A stretch of DNA of 64,000 nucleotides from Pyruvatibacter mobilis. GTDB taxonomy: Bacteria; Pseudomonadota; Alphaproteobacteria; CGMCC-115125. Below are positions 40,539 to 51,506 of the stretch, piece after piece. The number at the start of each line of letters is the position of its first letter. Position 1 is the first letter of the stretch. A model generated the notes under the pieces. It saw only the letters and a program-made list of their open reading frames with translations. It had not been told where the DNA came from and did no database searches. The stretch spans positions 2,769,501 through 2,833,500 of the forward strand of contig NZ_CP051630.1 in NCBI RefSeq assembly GCF_012848855.1, written 5' to 3'. The position numbers were made by a program, and so were the translations under genes.

Positions 40539-41297
40539 ATGGCGCTGTCCGGCGACCAGCTCGAGCGCTATGCGCGGCATATCCTCCTGAAGGAAATCGG
40601 CGGGCCGGGGCAGCAGGCGCTGCTCGCGGCCCGCGTCCTCATCATCGGCGCCGGCGGGCTCGGCTCGCCGGCAGCTCTCTATCTGGCAGCTTCCGGCGTG
40701 GGGACCATCGGGCTTGTGGATGATGACCATGTGTCGCTGTCCAACCTGCAGCGGCAGATAGCGCATACGACCGCTGCGGTGGGCGAACCAAAGACTGAAA
40801 GCGCAGCCCGCACGCTGACCGCCCTCAACCCGGACACCAGAATCAATCAGCATACGGAACGCCTGACGTCAGGCAATGTGGACGCGCTTGTCTCGGGCTA
40901 TGACATGGTGCTGGACGGCTGCGACAATTTCGAAACGCGGTTTCTGGTGAGTGATGCCTGCGAGCGCGCGCAGATACCGCTGGTGTCCGGCGCCGTCGGC
41001 CGGTTCGATGGGCAGCTCGCGGTCTTCCATCCGTGGGAGACCGACGCGGATGGCACACCGGGACCGGGCTATCGCGACCTGGTGCCGGAGATGCCGCCGC
41101 CGGGCAGCGTGCCCACCTGTGAGGAAGCCGGTGTGGTGGGCGCGCTTACCGGCGTCATCGGATCGATGATGGCAATGGAAGCGATCAAGGAAATCACCGG
41201 CGCCGGCACCAGCATGGCGGGCAGCCTGCTGCTTTACGATGCGCTGGATACCCGTATTCGGCGGGTGAAGCTGCGTCGCGACCCGCATCGCGGGTAA
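40539..41297 (+). CDS. moeB: MoeB/ThiF/HesA family adenylyltransferase without the zinc site
   Basis: A 252-residue E1-like enzyme. ATP-binding GAGGLGSPAALYLAASGVG, DDDHVSLSNLQRQIAH, DGCDNFETRFLV and EEAGVVGALTGVIGSM are standard. MoeB normally binds zinc with two CxxC pairs; here the first reads GYRDL where CYRCL is expected, and the C-terminus ends at RDPHRG where the second pair would follow. Both pairs are thus missing together. It adenylates the C-terminal glycine of a sulfur carrier (MoaD, ThiS or CysO-like). It is 12 bp from cysK. Confidence 0.85.
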   Translation: MALSGDQLERYARHILLKEIGGPGQQALLAARVLIIGAGGLGSPAALYLAASGVGTIGLVDDDHVSLSNLQRQIAHTTAAVGEPKTESAARTLTALNPDTRINQHTERLTSGNVDALVSGYDMVLDGCDNFETRFLVSDACERAQIPLVSGAVGRFDGQLAVFHPWETDADGTPGPGYRDLVPEMPPPGSVPTCEEAGVVGALTGVIGSMMAMEAIKEITGAGTSMAGSLLLYDALDTRIRRVKLRRDPHRG

Positions 41298-41326
41298 TCG
41301 CGGGGACAACCTCCCTTTATACGCGC

Positions 41327-41340
41327 TTGATACACGTCAA
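41327..41340. promoter_or_regulatory. FNR/FixK-type binding site
   Basis: TTGAT-ACAC-GTCAA differs by one base from the FNR/FixK consensus TTGAT-N4-ATCAA. Its centre is about 114 bp before the PAS-protein ATG; no good -10 was seen at the expected spacing. Confidence 0.45.
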
Positions 41341-41447
41341 AGTTTTGATTGAGGGCCTTTCAGCAAGGTCCTGTTTACGGATCAGGCGCAGACTTCTCCC
41401 CTGACGCGCATTCATTCACAAGCACCAACGATCGTTAGGGGGTCGCC

Positions 41448-42062
41448 ATGCTTGAGACGCCAACGCGCCTGTGCCCGCTTGAAAGCGGCGCCAATCTGCC
41501 GTCGAAAGCCTTTTCGGCCTTCTACGCGCAGTGGAACGCCGCCCGCGGCAGCCAGGACATGCCGGATGTGAGCCGCCTCGTTCCGACCGCTTTGCCACCG
41601 CATCTTCTGCCCTCCACGGCAATCATCGGCGTGGACCATGAACCCGACCGGCTGGTGGTCCGGCTCGCGGGATCACGGGTGCTGGACGCAACCGGGGTCG
41701 AGTTCACCAATTGGGAAATCGGCTCGCTGTCCGCCCTGCCGCGCCATTTCAGGGCAAATGAGATCGGCACCAGCCGGTTCGACACAGCGGTTGCCAAGCT
41801 CAACTGGGTGGTGGAACGGGGGCAGCCGGCCTGCGGCGGCGGCAGCATCCCCTGGGCCCGCAAGGCGCATATGCAGCAGCGCACGCTGATGTTGCCCTAC
41901 AAGGATGCCTCCGGCCGGGTGGCCCGGTTGCTGACACTGTCGGATTTCATGGTGACGGATCCGTGCGACGGCTGTGGCCGGAACTGCCCGGAGCAGAAGG
42001 ACGCGCGGTTTGCGACGCGGGCGCTCAGGACCGCGGCCACGGCCCTCAGCCTGCCGGTCTAG
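41448..42062 (+). CDS. PAS_5-type PAS protein with C-terminal cysteine motif
   Basis: A 204-residue protein resembling the alphaproteobacterial single-PAS family (PAS_5). The PAS-like part (about 50-170) includes DRLVVRLAGSRVLDATGVEFTNW and RTLMLPYKDASGRVARLLTL. After it comes DPCDGCGRNCPEQKD with C173, C176 and C180 (CxxCxxxC), plus C129 in the PAS region, which could bind metal or react to redox. An FNR-like site upstream fits oxygen-linked expression. No output domain is present; most members are uncharacterised. It is convergent with the dehydrogenase gene, 4 bp away. Confidence 0.75.
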   Translation: MLETPTRLCPLESGANLPSKAFSAFYAQWNAARGSQDMPDVSRLVPTALPPHLLPSTAIIGVDHEPDRLVVRLAGSRVLDATGVEFTNWEIGSLSALPRHFRANEIGTSRFDTAVAKLNWVVERGQPACGGGSIPWARKAHMQQRTLMLPYKDASGRVARLLTLSDFMVTDPCDGCGRNCPEQKDARFATRALRTAATALSLPV

Positions 42063-42066
42063 CGGC

Positions 42067-43056
42067 TCAGACGTCGCCGGGCAGGACACGGTCCGGCGGC
42101 GGATTGCCGTCGATGAAGCTGCGGATATTGATCACCACCTTCTCGCCCATCTCGGTGCGGCTTTCGATGGTGGCCGAGCCCATATGCGGCAGCAGCACGA
42201 CGTTGGGGCGGTTGAGCAGCTTGGGGTTTACCGCGGGTTCGTTCTCGAACACGTCGAGCCCTGCTCCGGCAATGCCGCCCTCCTCGATCACCTTGGCCAG
42301 TGCTGCCTCATCAATGATCTCACCGCGCGCGGTATTCACGATATAGGCCTCAGGCTTCATCAGGTTGAGGCGGCGGGCGTTGAGCAGGTGGAAGGTGGCG
42401 GGCGTGTGCGGGCAGTTGACCGACACGATGTCCATGCGTGCAAGCATCTGGTCGAGGCTGTCCCAATAGGTAGCCTCAAGCTCTTCCTCGATGCCCGGAT
42501 TGACCGGCTTGCGGTTGTGATAGTGGATCGACAAGCCAAATGCCTTGGCGCGGTGTGCAACCGCCTGGCCGATGCGGCCCATGCCGATGATGCCAAGACG
42601 CTTGCCGTGGATGCGGCGCCCCATCATCCAGGTGGGGGCCCAGCCCTGCCACTGATTGTCTTCACTGATGATTGTGGCGCCCTCTGTGAGACGCCGGGGC
42701 ACCGCGAGGATCAGTGCCATGGCCAGATCCGCCGTGTCCTCGGTGAGCACATTGGGCGTATTTGTGACCATGATGCCGCGCTGGTGAGCCGCATCCACAT
42801 CGATATTGTCGACACCGGCACCGAAATTGGCGATCAGCTTCAGCTTTGGCCCGGCCTTGCCGATGAGGTCCGCATCGATCCGATCGGTCACGGTGGGGAC
42901 CAGCACATCGCTTTCCGCCACCGCCTTTTCCAGCTGCTCCCGGCTCAGGGGCGCGTCCTCGATGTTGAGACGCGCATTGAAGAGCTCGCGCATGCGCGTC
43001 TCGACGATGTCGGGCAGTTTGCGGGTTACGGTGACAAGCGGCTTGGCGTGGGGCAC
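42067..43056 (-). CDS. D-2-hydroxyacid dehydrogenase (glyoxylate/hydroxypyruvate reductase-like)
   Basis: A 329-residue NAD(P)H enzyme. I place the start at GTG 43056 (VPHAKPLVTVTRKLP), since the upstream frame is unlike the family. NAD-binding GIIGMGRIGQAVAHRAKAFG; catalytic Arg in NTARGEIIDEAAL, Glu in GLDVFENEP and His in LLPHMGSAT. Related to GyaR/GhrA-type glycerate or glyoxylate reductases. Substrate choice among glyoxylate, hydroxypyruvate and other 2-keto acids cannot be read. Confidence 0.9.
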   Translation of the reverse strand: MPHAKPLVTVTRKLPDIVETRMRELFNARLNIEDAPLSREQLEKAVAESDVLVPTVTDRIDADLIGKAGPKLKLIANFGAGVDNIDVDAAHQRGIMVTNTPNVLTEDTADLAMALILAVPRRLTEGATIISEDNQWQGWAPTWMMGRRIHGKRLGIIGMGRIGQAVAHRAKAFGLSIHYHNRKPVNPGIEEELEATYWDSLDQMLARMDIVSVNCPHTPATFHLLNARRLNLMKPEAYIVNTARGEIIDEAALAKVIEEGGIAGAGLDVFENEPAVNPKLLNRPNVVLLPHMGSATIESRTEMGEKVVINIRSFIDGNPPPDRVLPGDV

Positions 43057-43463
43057 GAAGGAAGACCCTGTCTGATGGTCCCGGCGGACGGCCCGACGGA
43101 CATATTCTGCGGACAATTCTGCATGCGGTGTCTCATTCCTAGCACCCCTGCGGGCGCGCGTCCAAGCGCCTGATGCGGGCTGAAAACGGCGCTCTCCTGC
43201 CGCCTCGCACCACAGACCCATGTACCGCAGCGCGGCTTGACCGGGCTTTGACCGCCTTGCCATAAGGGTGGATCAAATCATGCTTAACGTGCCCCCGCAG
43301 CGGAGCTCTTCCGCCCTGGGCTGCAAAGAACAAGAAACCCGGTTTGCCCAGTCTCCCTGCCCGCCTGTTCAAGTTCATCGCCGCCTCCCTGACCATCTGC
43401 CGGACGGCTATTGCCGTGACCGCCGGCCGGACATGGTCAGCACGCGGGGCCGGCATTTACGCG
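43057..43463. other. 407-bp divergent region before the SH3 gene
   Basis: No gene with a good start is seen. The SH3 gene's frame is open from a TTG at 43344, but that start has no ribosome site. A possible plus-strand promoter is TTGACC (43237-43242), 17 nt, CCATAA (43260-43265). Confidence 0.35.
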
Positions 43464-44018
43464 ATGGGCATTCGCGCGACAGGCATTGTGCTTGCGGTGG
43501 CCCTGACAGCGACAGCCGGGCCCTCCAGCCTTGCGCAGTCGGCACGCAGCGTGCTGGGCGGGGCGCAGCTTGGCCCGGTCACAGGCCTGCCGATGCCCCG
43601 TTTTGTCTCGATCAAGTCGAGCCCTGTGAATGTGCGCGGCGGGCCCTCGACCAATCACCAGGTGGCCTGGGTGTTCGTGCGCCGGGGCGTGCCGGTGGAA
43701 GTGACGGCCGAGTTCGAGAACTGGCGGCGCATCCGCGACGTGGATGGCGATCAGGGCTGGGTGTTTCACACCCTGATCGACGGTGAGCGGATGGTTATGG
43801 TGGTGGGGCCGGACAAGGCGGCACCGCGCGAGGGAGACCTTGCCAAGCTGCACTTTGCTCCCGACGGCGCCAGCGATGTGGTGGCGCTGGTTGAGCCGGG
43901 GGTGATCGGCACTCTGGTCAATTGCGGGCAAGGCTGGTGCGCCGTACGCATGGGCCCGCATGAAGGTTTCATGCGGGCCACATCGCTATACGGCATCTAT
44001 GAGCGGGAAGCAGGCTGA
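43464..44018 (+). CDS. Exported bacterial SH3-domain protein
   Basis: A 184-residue protein from ATG 43464. MGIRATGIVLAVALTATAG is a hydrophobic Sec-type signal, ending near SSLAQS. The mature part contains an SH3b domain: SIKSSPVNVRGGPSTNHQVAWVF and LVNCGQGWCAVRMGPHEGFM, with two domain halves. The frame extends 40 residues further upstream (TTG 43344), which would give a longer N-terminus. Such proteins are often envelope-associated and bind peptidoglycan or proteins; the ligand is unknown. Confidence 0.8.
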   Translation: MGIRATGIVLAVALTATAGPSSLAQSARSVLGGAQLGPVTGLPMPRFVSIKSSPVNVRGGPSTNHQVAWVFVRRGVPVEVTAEFENWRRIRDVDGDQGWVFHTLIDGERMVMVVGPDKAAPREGDLAKLHFAPDGASDVVALVEPGVIGTLVNCGQGWCAVRMGPHEGFMRATSLYGIYEREAG

Positions 44019-44066
44019 GGCGCGGATTCAGGCACGCGCTTTCTCAGCGCTTCCAGTCTGTATCCA

Positions 44067-44666
44067 TCAGGCGAAGTCACCAGCAAGACGCTGCGCCATG
44101 GCGTCCGACATCACGGCCAGGTGCTGATAGTTTTCGTGAGCAAAGCCCACCATGATCTTCGCGCCCGGCTTCTTGAACTTCGCCACCTGATCCTCCGTGA
44201 ACGGAAAATGCAGGAAGTGGACGGAGGATGACTTGCCGTCTTCCGACGTCCGGTCCACATCGTGTTCGGGATTGGACATGACGCGCTCACCATCGATCTC
44301 GATGAAGGCCGTCTCCTCAATGCCCGCAAGCTTGTAGAGCACGTTCTTGCGGCGGACCTCGTCGTCGATCTCGAACATGATAGTCGCCACCAGCTCACGC
44401 CCCTTGGGGATCAACGGGTTGTAGGCCGACAGTTCATCCTCGATCTGCTCTTCACCACCCTTTTCGATGTAGAGCATCTCGTGGATCTGGTGCCACATGG
44501 TATCGAAGGACTCGAAATAGAACGTGGCGTGCGGGCCCACTTCAATGCGGCGCTCTCGCTTGACCGGCATCATGTCCTTGCGGCGCTGGGCACGTATCTT
44601 GACGTACTCATCCAGCGGCATGATGTCGGCGCGGGTAATCTCGGTCGGGTTCGGCATTGCTGTCAT
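44067..44666 (-). CDS. DUF3501 family protein
   Basis: A 199-residue cytoplasmic protein starting MTAMPNPTEITRADIMPLDEYVKIR; conserved-looking features are RRIEVGPHATFYFESFDTMWHQIHEML and a beta-rich C-terminal half (FLHFPFTEDQVAKFKKPGAKIMVGFAHENY). The His and Glu residues could bind metal, but no function is established for DUF3501. It is the last gene of an apparent operon behind the Fe-S protein (53 bp gap), and this pairing is repeated in other bacteria, so it probably works with that protein. Confidence 0.85.
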   Translation of the reverse strand: MTAMPNPTEITRADIMPLDEYVKIRAQRRKDMMPVKRERRIEVGPHATFYFESFDTMWHQIHEMLYIEKGGEEQIEDELSAYNPLIPKGRELVATIMFEIDDEVRRKNVLYKLAGIEETAFIEIDGERVMSNPEHDVDRTSEDGKSSSVHFLHFPFTEDQVAKFKKPGAKIMVGFAHENYQHLAVMSDAMAQRLAGDFA

Positions 44667-44719
44667 TTCCGTTCTCAACTCAACTGGGCCGCCCGGCCCG
44701 GAGTGCCGGTCGCGACCGG

Positions 44720-46075
44720 CTAGAGACCATAGGCCTGGGCGATCAACTCGATGGGATGGGCCGAGGCTGGGGGCTGCTTGCCTTCTTCGACTAGGCCCAG
44801 TTCCTCGATTTCCTGCATCAGGTGCTTGAGAGCCAGCGGGCATTCACTGACCACATGCTCCGGCTTTGCCTTTGAGATATTGCGCGCGGCCGTCTTGCCA
44901 ACCTTCATGGCCACATCGTGCGTGCTCTTGAGCACACCGAAGGTGCCGCCATGGCCGGCGCAGCGCTCGACCGGGGTGACCTTGGCCTCCGGGATGAGAC
45001 GCAGAAGCTCCACCGCCTTGGCCCCCATATTCTGGGCGCGGGCGTGGCAGGCCAGGTGCACGGCCACGTCGCCGGAGAGCGGCTTCATGCCCTCGGCCAG
45101 GCCTTCGTTCCTGGCGATATCGACGATGTATTCATCGATGTCCTTCACCGCCTTCGACAGGGCCTGCACGTTTTCGTCGTCCGGCAGGATCAGCGGCCAT
45201 TCGAATTTCATCATCAGGCCGCAGGAGGCGATGAGGGTGACGATGTCCCAGCCCTCATCCACCAGCGGGCGAAGGTCTTTTGACACCTTGCGAGCCTGCT
45301 CGGCAACGCGCTCAAGATCAGCCTGCTCAAGGAAGGGCATCCCGCAACAGCCGGGATAGACGGGCTTGGCCGTCACGCCCTGGCGGGCCAGTACCTTGAG
45401 GGCGGCTTCGCCCATTTGCGGATTGTTGTAATTGCCGTTGCAGGTGGCAAAGAGTGCCGCCTTGCGGCCGGTGGCCTTGCCATCAGCGGCGGGCGTCAGG
45501 GTCCCCTGCTTTTCGGCCTGCTTTGCCCGCATCATCAGCGTCTTACCGGCGAATGTCGGCAGCTCCGCCGTCGCATCGATGCCGGCGACCTTTTCCATCA
45601 CCGGGCGGGTGACCTTGTTGTCCTTCCTGGAGGCCCAGTTGGCGAGCCCGGCGACCGGCCGGATCATCTTGCCGTTGCGATCCATCTCGGCGAGCTGGCC
45701 GGCTGTGAAGTCGCTGTGGCCGTTCTTCTTGCGGACCATGCGGTAGCGCAGCATGAGATGAGGGAAGTCGAGATTGAATTCGTGCGGCGGCACATAGGGG
45801 CACTTCGTCATGAAGCACATGTCGCAGAGGGTGCAGGCCTCTTCCACCGGCGGGAACTGATCAGACGAGACGCTATCGAGCTCTCCCGTATCGCTTTCGT
45901 CGATCATGTCGAACAGGCGCGGGAAGGAGTCGCACAGATTGAAGCAGCGGCGGCAGCCGTGGCAGATGTCGAAGACGCGCCTCAGCTCTTCATCGAGCTT
46001 TGCCTCGTCATAGAAATCGTCGCTGTGCCAGTCGAGCGGGTGACGGATGGGCGCTTCAAGGCTGCCTTCTGCCAT
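44720..46075 (-). CDS. HdrD/GlpC-like iron-sulfur protein with two CCG domains
   Basis: A 451-residue protein. Two [4Fe-4S] ferredoxin motifs sit near the N-terminus: C38-x2-C41-x2-C44-x3-C48 and C81-x2-C84-x2-C87-x4-C92-P. Two CCG-type (heterodisulfide reductase subunit) modules follow: C212...C243-C244-G...C285, and a weaker second, C343...C372-A-G...C412, which lacks one Cys of the CCG pair. The layout resembles GlpC and HdrD, electron carriers between flavoproteins and quinone or thiol acceptors. No flavoprotein dehydrogenase is adjacent. Downstream of rubrerythrin and upstream of DUF3501, it is a plausible electron donor to rubrerythrin (inference). Confidence 0.88.
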   Translation of the reverse strand: MAEGSLEAPIRHPLDWHSDDFYDEAKLDEELRRVFDICHGCRRCFNLCDSFPRLFDMIDESDTGELDSVSSDQFPPVEEACTLCDMCFMTKCPYVPPHEFNLDFPHLMLRYRMVRKKNGHSDFTAGQLAEMDRNGKMIRPVAGLANWASRKDNKVTRPVMEKVAGIDATAELPTFAGKTLMMRAKQAEKQGTLTPAADGKATGRKAALFATCNGNYNNPQMGEAALKVLARQGVTAKPVYPGCCGMPFLEQADLERVAEQARKVSKDLRPLVDEGWDIVTLIASCGLMMKFEWPLILPDDENVQALSKAVKDIDEYIVDIARNEGLAEGMKPLSGDVAVHLACHARAQNMGAKAVELLRLIPEAKVTPVERCAGHGGTFGVLKSTHDVAMKVGKTAARNISKAKPEHVVSECPLALKHLMQEIEELGLVEEGKQPPASAHPIELIAQAYGL

Positions 46076-46140
46076 GGGGATGCCTGCCTCTTTCGGGGTC
46101 TCGTTGACGAAAGGCGCCGGATGTCCGGCGGCGGACGGCA

Positions 46141-46171
46141 GAAGGGCCGGGACATTGCAGCCCGGCCCTTC
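46141..46171. other. Intercistronic hairpin between rubrerythrin and the Fe-S gene
   Basis: A perfect 11-bp stem (GAAGGGCCGGG 46141-46151 / CCCGGCCCTTC 46161-46171) with a 9-nt loop and no T-run. A second short hairpin (CGCCGGA/TCCGGCG, 46115-46130) follows on the minus strand. It would stabilise or attenuate the transcript, favouring rubrerythrin over the downstream genes. Confidence 0.6.
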
Positions 46172-46184
46172 GCGTCAGCAGTCG

Positions 46185-46604
46185 TTAGGCGTCGAGATTG
46201 TCGAGCGCCTTCTGGAAACGGCCGGCGTGGCTCTTTTCAGCCTTCGCCAGAGTCTCGAACCAGTCGGCGATTTCGTCGAAGCCTTCTTCGCGCGCCGTGC
46301 GGGCCATGCCCGGATACATGTCGGTGTATTCGTGGGTTTCACCGGCGATGGCGGCCTTCAGGTTCTCGGAAGTGGAACCGATGGGCTCACCGGTGGCCGG
46401 GTCGCCGACCTCTTCCATGAATTCCAGATGGCCATGGGCGTGGCCGGTTTCGCCTTCCGCGGTGGAGCGGAACACGGCAGCCACATCATTGTAGCCTTCC
46501 ACGTCGGCCTTCTGGGCGAAATAGAGGTAACGGCGGTTGGCCTGGCTTTCACCGGAGAAAGCGGCCTTCAGATTTTCGAGTGTCTTGGATTCGGCGAGAG
46601 ACAT
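46185..46604 (-). CDS. Rubrerythrin without rubredoxin domain
   Basis: A 139-residue four-helix diiron protein. Ligand positions visible: E19, E52 with H55, E89, E92, and E123 with H126, in the segments [41 protein letters not shown] and AEKSHAGRF. The C-terminal rubredoxin-like Cys4 domain of classical rubrerythrin is absent, so an external electron donor is needed. Family role: hydrogen peroxide reduction. It heads a three-gene minus-strand unit and is preceded by a 333-bp regulatory region next to irr. Confidence 0.92.
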
Positions 46605-46748
46605 TTAGGGGATCCTCCTGAAACGACGTGACTGGATACGCATCTGGGGGGATCGCTGGACAGCGCCTTCCCCTCCGCTAATCCGTCGGTGCCCATCCGG
46701 AAAATGCGGACGCACACCACGCGATTAACGTAATGAGGGGGCAAGGGC

Positions 46749-46779
46749 TGTCAAGACTGGAACGCATCTAAAGTGATGC
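46749..46779 (-). promoter_or_regulatory. Candidate promoter element and dyad for the rubrerythrin unit
   Basis: TTGACA on the minus strand (46754-46749) is a consensus -35, though the -10 about 17 nt downstream is poor (ACGTTA). The inverted repeat GCATC/GATGC at 46764-46779 lies just upstream. Confidence 0.4.
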
Positions 46780-46805
46780 AAAAGTCTTTGTTTTTGCAGG
46801 ACTTT

Positions 46806-46822
46806 TTGAGACTGGTTCTCAA
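46806..46822. promoter_or_regulatory. Fur/Irr-type dyad TTGAGACTGGTTCTCAA
   Basis: TTGAGA and TCTCAA arms (6 bp, perfect) flank CTGGT. Read on the other strand as TGAGAAC-C-AGTCTCA it fits the 7-1-7 form of Fur-family sites. It lies about 50 bp upstream of the candidate -35 for rubrerythrin and beside the irr gene. Confidence 0.5.
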
Positions 46823-46937
46823 TCACGACTGGCCGGATGCCGTGCCCCTGGGCGTGGTTTCCGGCAAGTGGCTGATCGCAAACGCTTTCTCTCAGCCAAC
46901 TCAGCGCATGTGCAGGCCCGGAGACCGGAACCTGCCG

Positions 46938-47399
46938 TCAGGCCTTGTCGACCCGGACGATGACCTCGACACGTTCCAGCGCCGTGCCTTCCGGCACGTC
47001 CGGCAGGCCGGTCACGGAGATGCCGTGGCCGGGGATGTCCTCAAGGCGCGCATCCCCCACGTGGTAGAAGTGGTGATGGTCCTCGAGGTTGGTATCGAAA
47101 TAGGTGCAGCCGCCATCGACCACGACCTGCCGCAGCAGGCCAGCATCGGTGAACTGATGCAGGGTGTTGTAGACCGTTGCGAGGGATACCTTGACGCCGG
47201 CACGGGCCGCTTCGCCGTGCAGGGCTTCGGCCGTCACATGGCGATCGCCGCCGTCAAACAGCAGCCGGCCAAGCGCCAGGCGCTGACGCGTCGGGCGCAG
47301 GCCTTTGTCGCGCAGGGCCTGAAGCGTTTGCGCATAGGGGCGGTCCGAGGGGCTGGCCGAACCACGTTCGGCGGCAGCTGAATTGCTCGTGTCGGTCAT
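46938..47399 (-). CDS. irr: Iron response regulator Irr (Fur family)
   Basis: A 153-residue Fur-superfamily regulator with N-terminal winged helix (RPTRQRLALGRLLF, ATVYNTLHQFTDAGLL) and a dimerisation domain containing FDTNLEDHHHFYHV; H108-H110 are the HHH motif used for heme or metal sensing in Irr. Position before fabA-fabB-fabI matches the irr-fab linkage in rhizobia and relatives. Irr controls heme and iron genes, and is degraded or inactivated when heme is plentiful. Its promoter appears to start inside the end of the upstream Nudix gene (TTGACA, minus strand, 47494-47489). Confidence 0.92.
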   Translation of the reverse strand: MTDTSNSAAAERGSASPSDRPYAQTLQALRDKGLRPTRQRLALGRLLFDGGDRHVTAEALHGEAARAGVKVSLATVYNTLHQFTDAGLLRQVVVDGGCTYFDTNLEDHHHFYHVGDARLEDIPGHGISVTGLPDVPEGTALERVEVIVRVDKA

Positions 47400-47490
47400 G
47401 GCGTTTCCAAGGCTTGCGCCCGAAAAGCGCTGGCCATCTCTTTGGAACTGTTACAACAACACCTAAAATGTGGTGTGTGACAAGGACTTG

Positions 47491-47958
47491 TCAAGAAGTC
47501 AGCCGTCGAACCACGCGCGCGAGATCAGGCGGATAAACTGAATCTGCGGTTTTTTCGAGCGCCGGCACCGTCCACCAGCGCATTTCCTGCAGGGCCGCAC
47601 GCTCTTCGGGCTCTGTTCCGCCGATGAATCTCGGTGCGTCCGATGCGCAGGAGGCTGAAAAGAACACGTCCTGACCAAACCAATGGCGGCCATCTACCTC
47701 GAAGGTGCTTTCGAAGTAGTGGACGGGGCCCGTCAGGGGCACGGCGAGCCCAAGTTCCTCGTCGAGCTCGCGGAGGGCTGCGTCCTGGTCGCCTTCGCCC
47801 GGCTCGACGCCGCCGCCCGGGGTTGCCCAGAATTCGAACGGCCTGCCGCCCCGGGTGAGGCGGAAGCGCAGCAGCAGGACCCGGCCCGCAGGGTCGAGCA
47901 GGATGACCCGCGCCGAGCGGCGGGGGACCGGTCCGTCTGCTGCGCCGCCGTCCTGCAT
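47491..47958 (-). CDS. Nudix hydrolase
   Basis: A 155-residue protein with the Nudix box GGGVEPGEGDQDAALRELDEELGL region (Gx5Ex7REUxEExGU; Glu residues in RELDEEL bind Mg). It hydrolyses a nucleoside diphosphate linked to another moiety; specificity is not readable. Its ATG shares a base with the stop of the GST gene (TGATG), so the pair is translationally coupled. Confidence 0.88.
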   Translation of the reverse strand: MQDGGAADGPVPRRSARVILLDPAGRVLLLRFRLTRGGRPFEFWATPGGGVEPGEGDQDAALRELDEELGLAVPLTGPVHYFESTFEVDGRHWFGQDVFFSASCASDAPRFIGGTEPEERAALQEMRWWTVPALEKTADSVYPPDLARVVRRLTS

Positions 47959-48593
47959 CAGTCCTTGCGGGTGCGGATCAGTTCGTACGGGCCGCCCTTC
48001 TCAAGACCGCGCTGATAGGCGGGGCGGTCGTGCATGCGCGCGGCGTATGCCTCGAGCTTGGGGTAGTTCTTGAGGCCGATGCGGCTTTCAGCGGCTTCTA
48101 CGATGAAGGTCAGCATGATGTCGGCACCGGTAAGGTCGTCGCCGACGAAGAACAGATTGTCGCCGAGCTGGCTTTCCATGTAGCCCAAATGCAGGTCGAT
48201 CTCGGCGTCGATGATGGGCTGGATGGGCTCGCCGCCCTCGCCCAGCAGCGAGGTGAAAAGCTTCATGAGCAGCGGCACCATGGCGGAGCCTTCCGCATAG
48301 TGCATCCACTCATTGTAGCGCTCATAGCTGTCGGTCCCGATGGCAGGCATAAACTTGCCGCCGCCATAGGTCCGGATCAGGTAGTCAACAGCCGCGCCGG
48401 ATTCGGCGATCTTGAAGTTGCCGTCCTCGATGATCGGCGACTTGCCGAGCGGATGGGCTTGCTTCAGCTCAGGCGGGGCGCGGTTGATCTCGTTGCGCTG
48501 ATAGAACTTGATCTCGTAGTCGGCGCCGAGCTCCTCCAGCAGCCAGAGAATGCGCTGGGAGCGCGAATTGTTGAGATGGTGGATGATGATCAC
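47958..48593 (-). CDS. Glutathione S-transferase
   Basis: A 211-residue GST. The thioredoxin-like N-domain has HHLNNSRSQRILWLLEELGADYEI, with the Ser/Asn at the glutathione-activating position, then the cis-proline KSPIIEDG and ESGAAVDYLI. The all-helical C-domain follows, with TGADIMLTFIVEAA. Typical detoxification or glutathione-dependent transfer. Coupled to the Nudix gene; divergent from fabA. Confidence 0.9.
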   Translation of the reverse strand: MIIIHHLNNSRSQRILWLLEELGADYEIKFYQRNEINRAPPELKQAHPLGKSPIIEDGNFKIAESGAAVDYLIRTYGGGKFMPAIGTDSYERYNEWMHYAEGSAMVPLLMKLFTSLLGEGGEPIQPIIDAEIDLHLGYMESQLGDNLFFVGDDLTGADIMLTFIVEAAESRIGLKNYPKLEAYAARMHDRPAYQRGLEKGGPYELIRTRKD

Positions 48594-48676
48594 TGGATGT
48601 GCCTCCCGATTGCGGCGTCAAAACCGGTCTGCCGCCGCCTCTGGTTGATGTGTCTGTCGGCCCCAATATGGCCATG

Positions 48677-48706
48677 TTCACGCTGATTTTGCTCGCTTTT
48701 GATAAT
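48677..48706 (+). promoter_or_regulatory. Possible fabA promoter
   Basis: TTCACG (48677-48682), 18-nt spacer, GATAAT (48701-48706), about 52 bp before the fabA ATG. Confidence 0.4.
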
Positions 48707-48758
48707 GGGCGGCGTGTGCTACCAACGCGGGCTAAAGATCGAGGTAAGCGTCAGGACC

Positions 48759-49271
48759 ATGGAAACAAACGAAAAGAAGTCGAGCTTCAGCTACGAAGAC
48801 CTTATTGAGTGCGGTCACTCCCGCCTCTTTGGCCCCGGCAATGCGCAGCTGCCGCTGCCGCCGATGCTGATGTTCGACCGCGTCACGCGCATCAACGAGG
48901 ATGGCGGCGACCACGGCAAGGGCGAAATGGTGGCCGAGCAGGACATCAAGCCGGACATGTGGTTCTTCAAATGCCATTTCGAAGGCAACCCGGTGATGCC
49001 CGGCTGCCTGGGCCTTGATGCCCTGTGGCAGATGGTCGGCTTCTATCTGGGCTGGACCGGCGCCAAGGGCGCGGGGTTCGCGCTGGGGGTCGGCGAAGTG
49101 AAATTCCGCGGCAAGATCATCCCCACCACCAAGCTCGTCGAGTATCACGTGAAGTTCAAGCGCGTGGTCAACCGCCGGCTGGTGCTCGGCATCGCGGACG
49201 GTATCGTCAAGGCGGACGGGGAAGAGATCTTCTCGGCCAAGGACCTGCGGGTGGGCCTGTCCACCGCCTAG
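48759..49271 (+). CDS. fabA: 3-hydroxydecanoyl-ACP dehydratase/isomerase
   Basis: A 170-residue hotdog-fold enzyme. [31 protein letters not shown] carries the catalytic His and Asp (positions about 70 and 84). It dehydrates 3-hydroxydecanoyl-ACP and isomerises trans-2 to cis-3-decenoyl-ACP, the branch point to unsaturated fatty acids. The start at 48759 ([16 protein letters not shown]) has AGGA upstream. First gene of fabA-fabB-fabI. Confidence 0.95.
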
Positions 49272-49322
49272 TCACGCCGCCGCACGGCTTCAGGCAATTC
49301 GAACAGACGACGAGGTAAGTGA

Positions 49323-50540
49323 ATGAGGCGAGTGGTCGTAACCGGCATGGGTATCGTGTCCTCGATCGGCAACAATGTCGAAGAGGTGACCGCCTCCCTG
49401 CGCGCGGGCAAGTCCGGCATCGTGGCGGAGCCCACCTATGCCGAGATGGGCTTCCGCAGCCAGGTGGCCGGCACGCTGAAGATCGACCTCGAGGAAGCGC
49501 TCGACCGCAAGACCCGCCGCTTCATGGGCGACGGGGCGGCCTATGCCTATCTCGCCATGCAGCAGGCGATTGCCGATGCGGGGCTGGAAGACGCCGAGAT
49601 TTCCAATGAGCGCACCGGCGCCATCCTGGGGTCCGGCGGGCCGACGACGCAGGCCATCGTGGCAGCCGCTGACGTGACTCGCGAGAAGGGTCCGCGCAAG
49701 ATCGGCCCGACGAGCGTGCCCAAGGCGATGTCGTCGACGATCTCCGCCAATCTCTCGACCCTGTTCAAGATCAAGGGCCCGAGCTACTCGATCGCATCCG
49801 CCTGCACGACCTCAACGCATTGCATCGGCAACGCTGCCGAGCAGATCCAGTGGGGCAAGCAGGACCGGATGTTCGCCGGCGGCGGCGAGGAGCTGGCATG
49901 GTCGCTGTCGAACCTGTTCGACGCCATGGGTGCCATGTCGTCCAAGTACAATGACACACCCGCCAAGGCCTCGCGCGCCTATGACGCCAATCGCGACGGC
50001 TTCGTGATCACCGGCGGCGGCGGTGTTGTCGTGCTGGAAGAACTCGAAGTGGCCAAGGCCCGTGGCGCAAAGATCTATGCGGAAGTCGCAGGCTATGGCG
50101 CGACCTCCGATGGTGCCGACATGGTGGCACCGTCCGGTGAAGGCGGCGAGCGTGCCATGCGGCTGGCGCTGGAAACCGTGGGCGAGAAGATCGACTACAT
50201 CAATCCGCACGCGACCTCGACGCCGGTGGGCGACATTCCGGAAGTGAAAGCGATCCAGAATGTGTTCGGCGCGGACATGCCGCCGATCTCAGCCACAAAG
50301 TCGATGACCGGCCATGCGCAGGGCGCAGCGGGCGTCCATGAAGCGATCTATTCCCTGATCATGATGGACCAGGGTTTCATCTGCGAAAGCATCAATATCG
50401 ACGAAATCGACCCGGAACTGGCGGACGCGAATATCGTGCGCCAGCGGATCGATGACGTGGAACTTAACTGTGTCCTCTCAAACAGCTTTGGTTTTGGCGG
50501 CACAAATGGTTCGCTTGTTTTCAAGCGGTATAACGGTTAA
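49323..50540 (+). CDS. fabB: 3-oxoacyl-ACP synthase I (KAS I)
   Basis: A 405-residue condensing enzyme. The active-site Cys is in [14 protein letters not shown], with the two His in [12 protein letters not shown] and [10 protein letters not shown] and the preceding Lys in TKSMTG. FabB elongates the cis-unsaturated intermediate made by FabA, so the pair defines anaerobic-type unsaturated fatty acid synthesis. 51 bp from fabA and 42 bp before fabI: one operon. Confidence 0.95.
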
Positions 50541-50582
50541 CGGGCCAATGGCCCGCCTATTGGGGATGGGGGACACCCGCTG

Positions 50583-51506
50583 ATGTCGGCAACCGGTACT
50601 CTAATGCAAGGCAAGCGCGGCCTCGTGATGGGCGTCGCCAATGATCACTCGATCGCCTGGGGCATTGCCAAGGCCTGCGCCGCACAGGGCGCGGATCTGG
50701 CCTTTACCTATCAGGGCGAGGCGTTCGGCCGGCGGGTGACCCCGCTGGCGGAGAGCGTCGGCTCGAAGCTGGTGCTGCCGGCGGATGTGGAAGACGAGGC
50801 ATCGCTGGATGCCGTCTTCAAGTCGCTGGAAGACGCCTGGGGCAGCTTCGATTTCCTCGTGCATGCCATCGCCTATTCGGACAAGAGCGAGCTCAAGGGC
50901 CGCTACCTGGATACGACGCGCGCCAATTTTGCGCGCACGATGGATATTTCCTGCTTCTCCTTCGTGGACATTGCGCGCCGTGCGGCACCGCTGATGCGGC
51001 CGGGCGGCTCCATGGTGACGCTGACCTATGCGGGCGCGGAACGGGTGATGCCCAACTACAATGTGATGGGCGTGGCCAAGGCGGCGCTTGAAGCCTCGGT
51101 GCGCTACATGGCGGTTGATCTCGGCCGTGACGGCATTCGCGTCAACGCGATTTCCGCAGGTCCCATGCGCACGCTGGCGGGCTCTGCCATTGCCGACGCC
51201 AAGACCGTGTTCAACTGGAACCTGACCCATGCCCCGCTGAAGCAGGCGATTGAGCTTGATGATGTGGGCGGCGCCGGGCTTTACCTGCTTTCCGATCTGT
51301 CGCGCAGCGTGACGGGCGAAGTGCATCACGTGGACGCCGGCTACAACGTAATCGGCATGCCGCAGGCCCGTGACCTGGACAAGGACCTGGTCGGCAAGGG
51401 CTATGCGAAGGTCGCCAAGTCCCGCAACGGCAAGGGGAAACCCGCCGCGGACAACGACACCCGCGCCGCTGCCGCGCCGGCCAGCGCTTCGGATGCTGCC
51501 GAGTAG
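50583..51506 (+). CDS. fabI: Enoyl-ACP reductase (NADH)
   Basis: A 307-residue FabI-type short-chain reductase that reduces trans-2-enoyl-ACP. Marks: VMGVANDHSIAWGIAKA (cofactor binding), AIAYSD, and the Tyr-x6-Lys pair in NYNVMGVAK (with an upstream Tyr in LTYAGAERV). It is about 40 residues longer than E. coli FabI, with an Ala/Lys/Asp-rich tail of unknown use after GYNVIGMPQ. The tail ends DAAE, within a hairpin shared with the convergent gene's end. Confidence 0.95.
   Translation: MSATGTLMQGKRGLVMGVANDHSIAWGIAKACAAQGADLAFTYQGEAFGRRVTPLAESVGSKLVLPADVEDEASLDAVFKSLEDAWGSFDFLVHAIAYSDKSELKGRYLDTTRANFARTMDISCFSFVDIARRAAPLMRPGGSMVTLTYAGAERVMPNYNVMGVAKAALEASVRYMAVDLGRDGIRVNAISAGPMRTLAGSAIADAKTVFNWNLTHAPLKQAIELDDVGGAGLYLLSDLSRSVTGEVHHVDAGYNVIGMPQARDLDKDLVGKGYAKVAKSRNGKGKPAADNDTRAAAAPASASDAAE

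Follow-up and report, generated by a model that had tools for sequence, protein, structure and literature searches.

The window analysed here, a stretch of 64,000 nucleotides from Pyruvatibacter mobilis (contig NZ_CP051630.1, positions 2,769,501 to 2,833,500), encodes on its minus strand the regulator Irr followed by a rubrerythrin (RBR), a CCG-type Fe-S protein (RFO) and a DUF3501 protein. We found that the last three genes are grouped far beyond chance, and that their link to irr is real and usual in alphaproteobacteria. It is rather probable that this trio constitutes a three-component peroxidase, in which RFO would relay electrons, DUF3501 would act as the coupling component, and Irr would tie expression to iron/haem. 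The window copy of the trio is ordinary and the system has already been described; the irr link, the palindrome at the promoter, the changes in rubrerythrins that have neither partner, and the family-wide cysteine losses of RFO are additions to the published trio.

Gene Identities and the Known System

The minus-strand gene order in the window is irr, rbr, rfo and DUF3501:

46938..47399, minus strand: irr, Fur-superfamily iron/haem-responsive regulator of the IrrA type, 153 amino acids, NF045678 match, HxH motif H108/H110
46185..46604, minus strand: rbr, one-domain aerobic-type rubrerythrin (sulerythrin/ferriperoxin type), 139 amino acids, PF02915 at 7e-32
44720..46075, minus strand: rfo, GlpC/HdrD-like CCG Fe-S protein, 451 amino acids, PF02754 at 1e-12 in two stretches
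44067..44657, minus strand: DUF3501 protein, 196 amino acids, cysteine-free, PF12007 at 2e-61

The coordinates, the Pfam matches and NF045678 bear out the original prediction, made from the letters alone, of a minus-strand unit of rbr, a CCG protein and DUF3501 next to irr. Irr reaches 215 bits against the NF045678 IrrA model, above the curated cut-off of 150, and H108 and H110 are kept in all 34 aligned Irr proteins. The start of the DUF3501 gene is set at 44657 by the equivalent in a genus-mate; the longer listed open reading frame begins too early. The rubrerythrin gives only the PF02915 match and an overlapping ferritin match, and because the protein contains no cysteine, it has no rubredoxin domain, as had been predicted. 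Its di-iron ligands are presumably E19, E52, H55, E89, E92, E123, and H126, on known ligand positions transferred by alignment. The nearest solved chains are one-domain rubrerythrins, namely PDB 4di0 (E = 2e-69) and sulerythrin, 1j30 (E = 4e-52).

PMC5114695 (Cardenas 2016) defines the aerobic-type rubrerythrin lineage, names the Fe-S partner RFO, reports that RBR, RFO, and DUF3501 co-occur in 185 of 4461 genomes, and proposes that RFO, as electron donor, makes up for the lost rubredoxin domain. PMC7050145 (2020, Andalucia godoyi) describes the trio from protist mitochondria and traces RFO and DUF3501 to an alphaproteobacterial source. According to these two sources, the trio is found in other bacteria, archaea, and protist mitochondria, and the association is repeated in PMC7852563, PMC7760498, and PMC7465337. 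The window shares with the published system the same three co-located families, the one-domain rubrerythrin, and the same proposed electron route. It differs in the irr link: PMC5114695 does not mention Irr, and the word "irr" has zero occurrences in its main text. In the literature searched, no publication describing regulation of the trio by Irr turned up, and one may have been missed. Ferriperoxin and the sulerythrin of Sulfolobus are, like the window rubrerythrin, one-domain proteins of the same lineage; peroxidase activity is known for ferriperoxin, in an assay that used FNR/NADPH and neither RFO nor DUF3501.

Co-occurrence of the Trio

We counted the three genes in 240 alphaproteobacterial genomes, calling RFO at E ≤ 1e-40 and rubrerythrin at E ≤ 1e-10. 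DUF3501 occurs in 120 genomes, RFO in 116, and rubrerythrin in 141; in 121 of the latter the match is at least 57% identical and was counted as aerobic-type RBR, and 20 more genomes with matches at or below 56% were dropped. The full trio is present in 114 of the 240 genomes, so that the co-occurrence beyond this genome which the original prediction had proposed as its test was indeed found. The genes share a strand and follow each other as rbr-rfo-DUF3501 in 105 of these 114 genomes (104 contiguous, one with a 52-kb gap) and are split over contigs in nine. Fisher p values for the three gene pairs are 2e-64, 2e-53, and 6e-57; related genomes are not independent, and the values are uncorrected for shared ancestry.

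The pairing is nearly complete in both directions. RFO without DUF3501 was seen in none of the 116 RFO genomes, and DUF3501 without RFO in four of 120: two with partial matches, one with the match at the end of a contig, and the genome G112 discussed below. Aerobic-type RBR accompanies DUF3501 in 115 of 120 genomes and occurs without it in six of 121, and neither DUF3501 nor RFO was found in any of the 20 genomes in which every rubrerythrin match is a more distant one. Among 200 genomes drawn from the phylum, 11 contain DUF3501, eight inside the class and three outside.

One locus shows apparent decay (L070, G027:C1:96036-97573), with an RFO fragment containing an internal stop, DUF3501 in pieces, and no rubrerythrin match in the genome. 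Two other alphaproteobacterial loci, L152 and L155 (G329 and G414), have DUF3501 and RFO only 38-43% identical to those of the window, as distant as the non-alpha copies, and possibly acquired by horizontal transfer; an Irr-box-like palindrome stands 5' of rbr in both.

Linkage to irr

Irr was called by NF045678 at E ≤ 1e-15 and is present in 149 of the 240 genomes, 128 of them over the curated cut-off; Irr positions were unlisted for some matches, and placeholders were used for three genomes without the trio. A same-strand irr gene no more than 1.5 kb upstream of rbr is present in 99 of the 114 trio genomes and in 104 of the 121 RBR genomes, with a median gap of 181 nt, and irr-rbr adjacency is found in 62 of the 73 families having the trio. 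The irr link noticed in the window thus extends far wider than one genome. Ten of the 15 trio genomes without adjacent irr have no Irr at all at this threshold. Two sets of loci were also compared, the first being 40 chosen from 120 and the second the best 80 of 570 matches; in these best 80 loci, the trio occurs in 78, and irr lies within 1.2 kb upstream in 57 of the 73 with enough upstream DNA.

A Candidate Operator before rbr

The following elements were read upstream of rbr in the window:

46756..46772, minus strand: Irr-box/ICE-like site TTTAGATGCGTTCCAGT, weak, 10 of 14 letters by hand count, just 5' of the rbr -35 element
46749..46754, minus strand: putative rbr -35 element TTGACA, with the TTGAC spacing kept among relatives
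46727..46732, minus strand: putative rbr -10 element TACGTT, spacer 16, read from the sequence
46806..46822, minus strand: second imperfect palindrome TTGAGAACCAGTCTCAA, three mismatches, which may be chance

The box comparison was made against the letters of the presumed ICE consensus. In relatives, the irr-rbr gap usually contains a palindrome near TTTAGAATnATTCTAAA, just upstream of the -35 element, and then TTGAC. The position of TTTAGATGCGTTCCAGT matches that of this stronger palindrome and of TTTAGACCTGTTCCAGT in two genus-mates (L031 and L032), in which TTGACA-16-TACGTT is identical. The second palindrome, TTGAGAACCAGTCTCAA, was not found in the 230 nt compared for L031 and L032, and it has three mismatches, a level at which the reversed control pattern is matched 25 times and the real pattern 11 times. 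Because the control outmatches the real pattern by the same 25 to 11 in the genome-wide search with at most three mismatches, that search was rejected as proof of an Irr regulon, and its sites are taken as leads only.

We compared 117 rbr upstreams (the window, 38 of the first set, and 78 of the second), a number that includes four genomes in both sets (L051/L130, L056/L146, L058/L131, and L061/L083). In 93 of the 117, rbr is preceded by a palindrome that matches 9 or more of the 14 letters and whose centre is 9-15 nt from TTGAC, compared with one of 2340 shuffles; a recount gave 92 of 116. The same arrangement occurs before none of 118 rfo genes and 120 DUF3501 genes. The divergent genes upstream of the unit are presumably fabA, fabB, and fabI, names assigned from the sequence; the arrangement is absent before these (0/54, 0/53, and 0/51), before the dehydrogenase (0/64), SH3 (0/67), and moeB (0/36) genes of the neighborhood, 0/325 in total, and it precedes irr itself in five of 93 cases. 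Over all genes other than rbr and irr, it was found in 0 of 563 upstreams. When the TTGAC condition is dropped and at least 12 letters are required, the palindrome is seen before RBR in 74 of 116, irr in two of 93, DUF3501 in one of 120, fabA in one of 54, and none of the remaining genes. Among 21 loci with no irr within 1.2 kb, 14 still have a palindrome of at least 11 letters before rbr; this is a hand count in which Methylocystis makes up many of the loci, one genome appears as both L056 and L146, and L118 has irr 2 kb away. By comparison, we regard the AT-rich palindrome near the promoter as an Irr-box-like candidate operator.

Irr boxes near the promoters of peroxide- or iron-handling genes are known, with different target enzymes. 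At R. sphaeroides ccpA (PMC3413700), the box lies ~40 nt upstream of the start site, near the spacing predicted at rbr; at S. meliloti mbfA (PMC7540006), it overlaps the -35/-10 elements and represses; and a review states that Irr represses or activates according to box position. These precedents differ, and therefore the sign of regulation at rbr could be either.

Irr-box-like sites also occur elsewhere in the genome of the window. One, TTTAGAATTATTCCAAT (L159, G000:C1:629010-629026), precedes a ferritin-family (Dps-like) gene by 65 bp, and another with three mismatches (L163, G000:C1:636130-636146) lies 5' of an AhpC/TSA peroxiredoxin gene; two genus-mates (L170 and L175) have a box closer to the consensus before the same AhpC/TSA gene, identified by sequence likeness. 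The site ATTAGAATTATTCGAAA (L160, G000:C1:1275249-1275265) is followed by TTGAC as at rbr, with an alpha/beta-hydrolase-like open reading frame ~450 bp downstream and a short-chain dehydrogenase gene on the other side.

The Unit in the Gamma Class

Among 114 genomes of the class of G254 (the gamma class), 47 have RBR at E ≤ 1e-40, and 30 loci of the 48 matches were analysed, with G254 represented twice (L153 and L187). In the 1.5-kb flanks, RFO is present in 28 loci, irr in none of the 30, and no Fur-family open reading frame of at least 100 amino acids was detected by phmmer, run with a positive control. A regulator of the PerR type may act at these loci. The palindrome-TTGAC arrangement at 9 letters or more is likewise found in 0 of 30. 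The alpha consensus at 12 or more of 14 letters, however, is present in 15 of the 30 loci, being perfect in L204 and L210, and a palindrome TTTAGACTnAGTCTAAA, at 12 or more of 16 letters, precedes rbr in 19 of the 30 (L187-L216; 1.6% of shuffles). Of the loci from the phylum search, three outside the class (including G254) score 8-9 letters and three alphaproteobacterial ones without nearby irr score 12-13. Because half of the gamma-class loci carry a similar palindrome with no irr nearby, the palindrome is not Irr-specific, the gamma class does not serve as a negative control for the operator, and the idea of an Irr-only palindrome was rejected. The palindrome is most simply read as a Fur-superfamily operator of this unit that is probably older than Irr control and has its alphaproteobacterial form in the fixed place beside TTGAC.

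Structure of RFO

RFO contains two four-cysteine ferredoxin-type motifs (C38/41/44/48 and C81/84/87/92) and then two CCG modules, in agreement with the two-cluster, two-CCG protein originally described. These eight cysteines, together with C212, C243, C244, C285, C343, C372, C412, H344, and H375, are near-invariant (40 or 41 of 41 first-set rows, one being a fragment; 65 of 65 rows of alignment A3; and five of five gamma-type copies). CCG module 1 resembles that of E. coli GlpC in having a single cysteine (C285) in place of the CxxC pair of HdrB. CCG module 2 has only C343, C372, and C412, with two of the five cysteines of HdrB and E. coli GlpC missing (373 and 415). No cysteine was found at 282, 288, 373, or 415 in the 65 rows of A3, nor at 288, 373, or 415 in the 41 first-set rows and the five gamma-type copies; residue 288 is Met (one Ile in A3), 373 is Ser or Ala, and 415 is Ala (Gly in two gamma-type copies). 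The earlier remark that the second module lacks a cysteine was true but incomplete, since two are missing and module 1 is altered as well. For module 2, its doubt that a noncubane cluster is bound is reasonable, but the altered CCG sites of EtfD do hold unusual clusters, according to PMC13083937.

In the profile alignment, A415 (Ala in 65 of 65 A3 rows) lies opposite the bridging Cys234 of HdrB. C285 is aligned with the second cysteine of the HdrB pair, and the motif can also be read with it as the first, so this placement is ambiguous. A correspondence of residue 288 to the bridging Cys81 of HdrB was dropped, as the profile alignment puts C285 itself opposite Cys81.

RFO as GlpC or HdrD proper was rejected on score and ligand pattern. 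Against the GlpC models, it reaches 180 of the 278 bits needed for NF008369 and 110 of 280 for TIGR03379, and no GlpA or GlpB gene stands beside rfo in the region scanned. GlpC is likewise an Fe-S protein with two CCG modules, and module 1 of the E. coli protein has the same four cysteines, but its module 2 is complete (C, CC, and CxxC), whereas that of RFO has three cysteines and a histidine. The AlphaFold2 model of RFO, with a predicted local distance difference test score (pLDDT) of 89.5, resembles LutA (Z = 24.4, residues 204-448) and HdrB (Z ~20). EtfD of Mycobacterium smegmatis (9ojn) matches the whole model from residue 1 to 451 (Z = 23.4, root-mean-square deviation 3.8 Å over 370 aligned residues). 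The N-terminal membrane/b-haem part of EtfD has no counterpart in RFO, as the model aligns to EtfD 249-747 only in this structure alignment. As described in PMC13083937, the CCG sites of EtfD hold two clusters shielded from solvent, a linear [3Fe-4S] one and a noncubane [4Fe-4S] one ligated by a His, an arrangement that is a possible adaptation to air. Both EtfD and RFO thus have altered CCG ligands, with a His at one EtfD site, but the altered residues are not the same ones. In two loci (L065 and L066, from G199 and G084), RFO is extended to 486 and 529 residues, from the usual ~451, and its match is broken in two, consistent with an insert between the halves.

Structure of DUF3501

For the AlphaFold2 model of DUF3501 (pLDDT 93), the one relative with a solved structure is 3fjv (Z = 25.5), whose function is unknown. 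An assignment to a known fold family was rejected, as only 3fjv stands out and the next matches have Z ≤ 6.8; these include a Listeria protein of unknown function, H. pylori CrdA, Kir channels, and Ig domains. No function was drawn from such matches because their scores are of the size that common arrangements give. The conserved charged residues include R19, K30, R33, R34, E46, E57, E62, and R100 (numbered from 44648). These residues and the absence of cysteine suggest a docking or assembly role for DUF3501 rather than that of an electron carrier.

Rubrerythrins without Both Partners

Six genomes from five families have a rubrerythrin but neither RFO nor DUF3501 (L217-L222; two share a genus). 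At least some of the losses are separate because two of the five families keep the trio in another sampled genome. In the 117 trio RBRs, 78 positions are invariant, and in a leave-one-out comparison each trio RBR changes at most one. The six partnerless RBRs change 7, 15, 31, 15, 5, and 12 of the 78 positions; G18 and Y93 are changed in all six, G88 in five, and the ligand E92 in four. For comparison, five divergent trio RBRs (71-85% identity) change 0-6 positions, six others (76-86%) 0-5, and the 30 gamma-class RBRs 1-4; G18, G88, and Y93 are intact in all 41 comparison rows from trio-type loci, where G118 is both a comparison row and among the 117. At the level of sequence, then, the G18/G88/Y93 pattern distinguishes the partnerless RBRs in this small sample of six. 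A good box is absent in five of the six loci, which have 6-8 of the 14 letters; L217 has 12.

Genomic Surroundings

The genome is 3.33 Mb in a single contig. NUDIX and GST genes lie 5' of the unit, followed by the divergent fab-type genes, and an SH3-domain gene and a D-2-hydroxyacid dehydrogenase gene lie 3'. The synteny of moeB-like, dehydrogenase, SH3, DUF3501-rfo-rbr-irr, and fab genes (window 40539-51506) is partly kept in many alphaproteobacterial loci, and the SH3 and dehydrogenase genes stay beside rbr in four of the six loci without rfo and DUF3501.

Proposed Mechanism and Alternative Explanations

In the proposed three-component peroxidase, the di-iron site of the rubrerythrin would, by analogy with ferriperoxin, be where H2O2 or organic peroxides are reduced. 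RFO would be an EtfD/GlpC-like wire, with two cubane [4Fe-4S] clusters and two altered CCG sites, that passes electrons to the rubrerythrin from some flavoprotein or ferredoxin. DUF3501 may be a cofactor-free adaptor or assembly factor coupling RFO to the rubrerythrin, which is the weakest step. Irr would bind the palindrome just 5' of the rbr -35 element and so link an iron-costly system to iron/haem status. The partners also appear to matter to the rubrerythrin: without both, residues near the di-iron site are changed and the good box is usually gone.

More tentatively, we propose that three things hold jointly: an obligate three-component peroxidase, a partner-engaged patch on the rubrerythrin, and membership of the Irr regulon through an inherited Fur-superfamily operator. 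RFO and DUF3501 would engage a patch of G18, S20, and G88-D95, clearest at G18, G88, and Y93, which would be constrained only while both proteins exist. An older Fur-superfamily operator would have been fixed beside the -35 element and then taken over by Irr; its inheritance from an older site is suggested by the presence of both TTTAGACTnAGTCTAAA and the alpha form in gamma-class genomes. The supply of haem/iron would then gate peroxide reduction.

Several observations weigh against a three-component peroxidase under Irr control. PMC3317640 reports that ferriperoxin of Hydrogenobacter thermophilus is a peroxidase in vitro with electrons from NADPH via FNR and no RFO; because FNR and NADPH suffice, RFO was not obligatory in that assay. 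RBR and DUF3501 occur without RFO in Thermoproteales, according to PMC5114695, and DUF3501 lies in the flanks without RFO in two of the 30 gamma-class loci; in G112, 81% complete, RBR adjoins DUF3501 with no RFO between. The box of the window itself is weak, the box pattern shows no genome-wide enrichment over its control, and irr is still within 1.5 kb upstream in five of the six partnerless genomes (1.4 kb in G016). Sulerythrin, at 62% identity, changes 16 of the 78 positions, keeping G18 and G88 and having Trp at 93. Two of the six partnerless RBRs change only 5 and 7 positions, at or barely above the divergent trio RBRs, and the change count alone is therefore not decisive. The alpha-type palindromes in half of the gamma-class loci, without irr, slightly lower our confidence.

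A rather unlikely alternative is that RFO and DUF3501 are maintenance factors for cluster or di-iron assembly or for repair of peroxide damage, the real donor being a general ferredoxin/FNR. The FNR-driven ferriperoxin assay, the family-wide absence of two of the five cysteines from CCG module 2, and the existence of RBR and DUF3501 without RFO in Thermoproteales and G112 all favor it. However, both ferredoxin-type motifs and the four-cysteine first CCG site are kept in all full-length RFO rows aligned, and the modelled fold of RFO is that of electron-transfer proteins.

It is improbable that the system handles iron rather than peroxide, as a ferroxidase or iron buffer controlled by Irr in the way of bfr and mbfA. 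The ferritin-like match of the rubrerythrin, the Irr-box-like site at the Dps-like gene of the same genome, and the repression of bfr and mbfA by Bradyrhizobium Irr (PMC4902296) are consistent with it, but iron storage does not need a dedicated Fe-S redox partner, and PMC3317640 reports that Fpx is a peroxidase and that an fpx disruptant shows no aerobic growth. Equally doubtful is a passive irr link, with an old fab-irr-rbr neighborhood kept by descent and a palindrome serving another Fur-family regulator: the fab, SH3, and dehydrogenase genes are often syntenic too, partnerless loci retain nearby irr without a good box, and a similar palindrome exists in gamma-class loci that have no irr nearby, but the palindrome-TTGAC arrangement precedes rbr, not the other syntenic genes or the gamma-class rbr, and irr is the adjacent regulator gene in most trio families.

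The interest of the three-component peroxidase lies in its Irr linkage, with a putative operator, and in the partner-dependent residues of the rubrerythrin. Together, these make the role of RFO and DUF3501 directly testable, and narrow the question to a few point mutants, a reporter, and a reconstitution assay.

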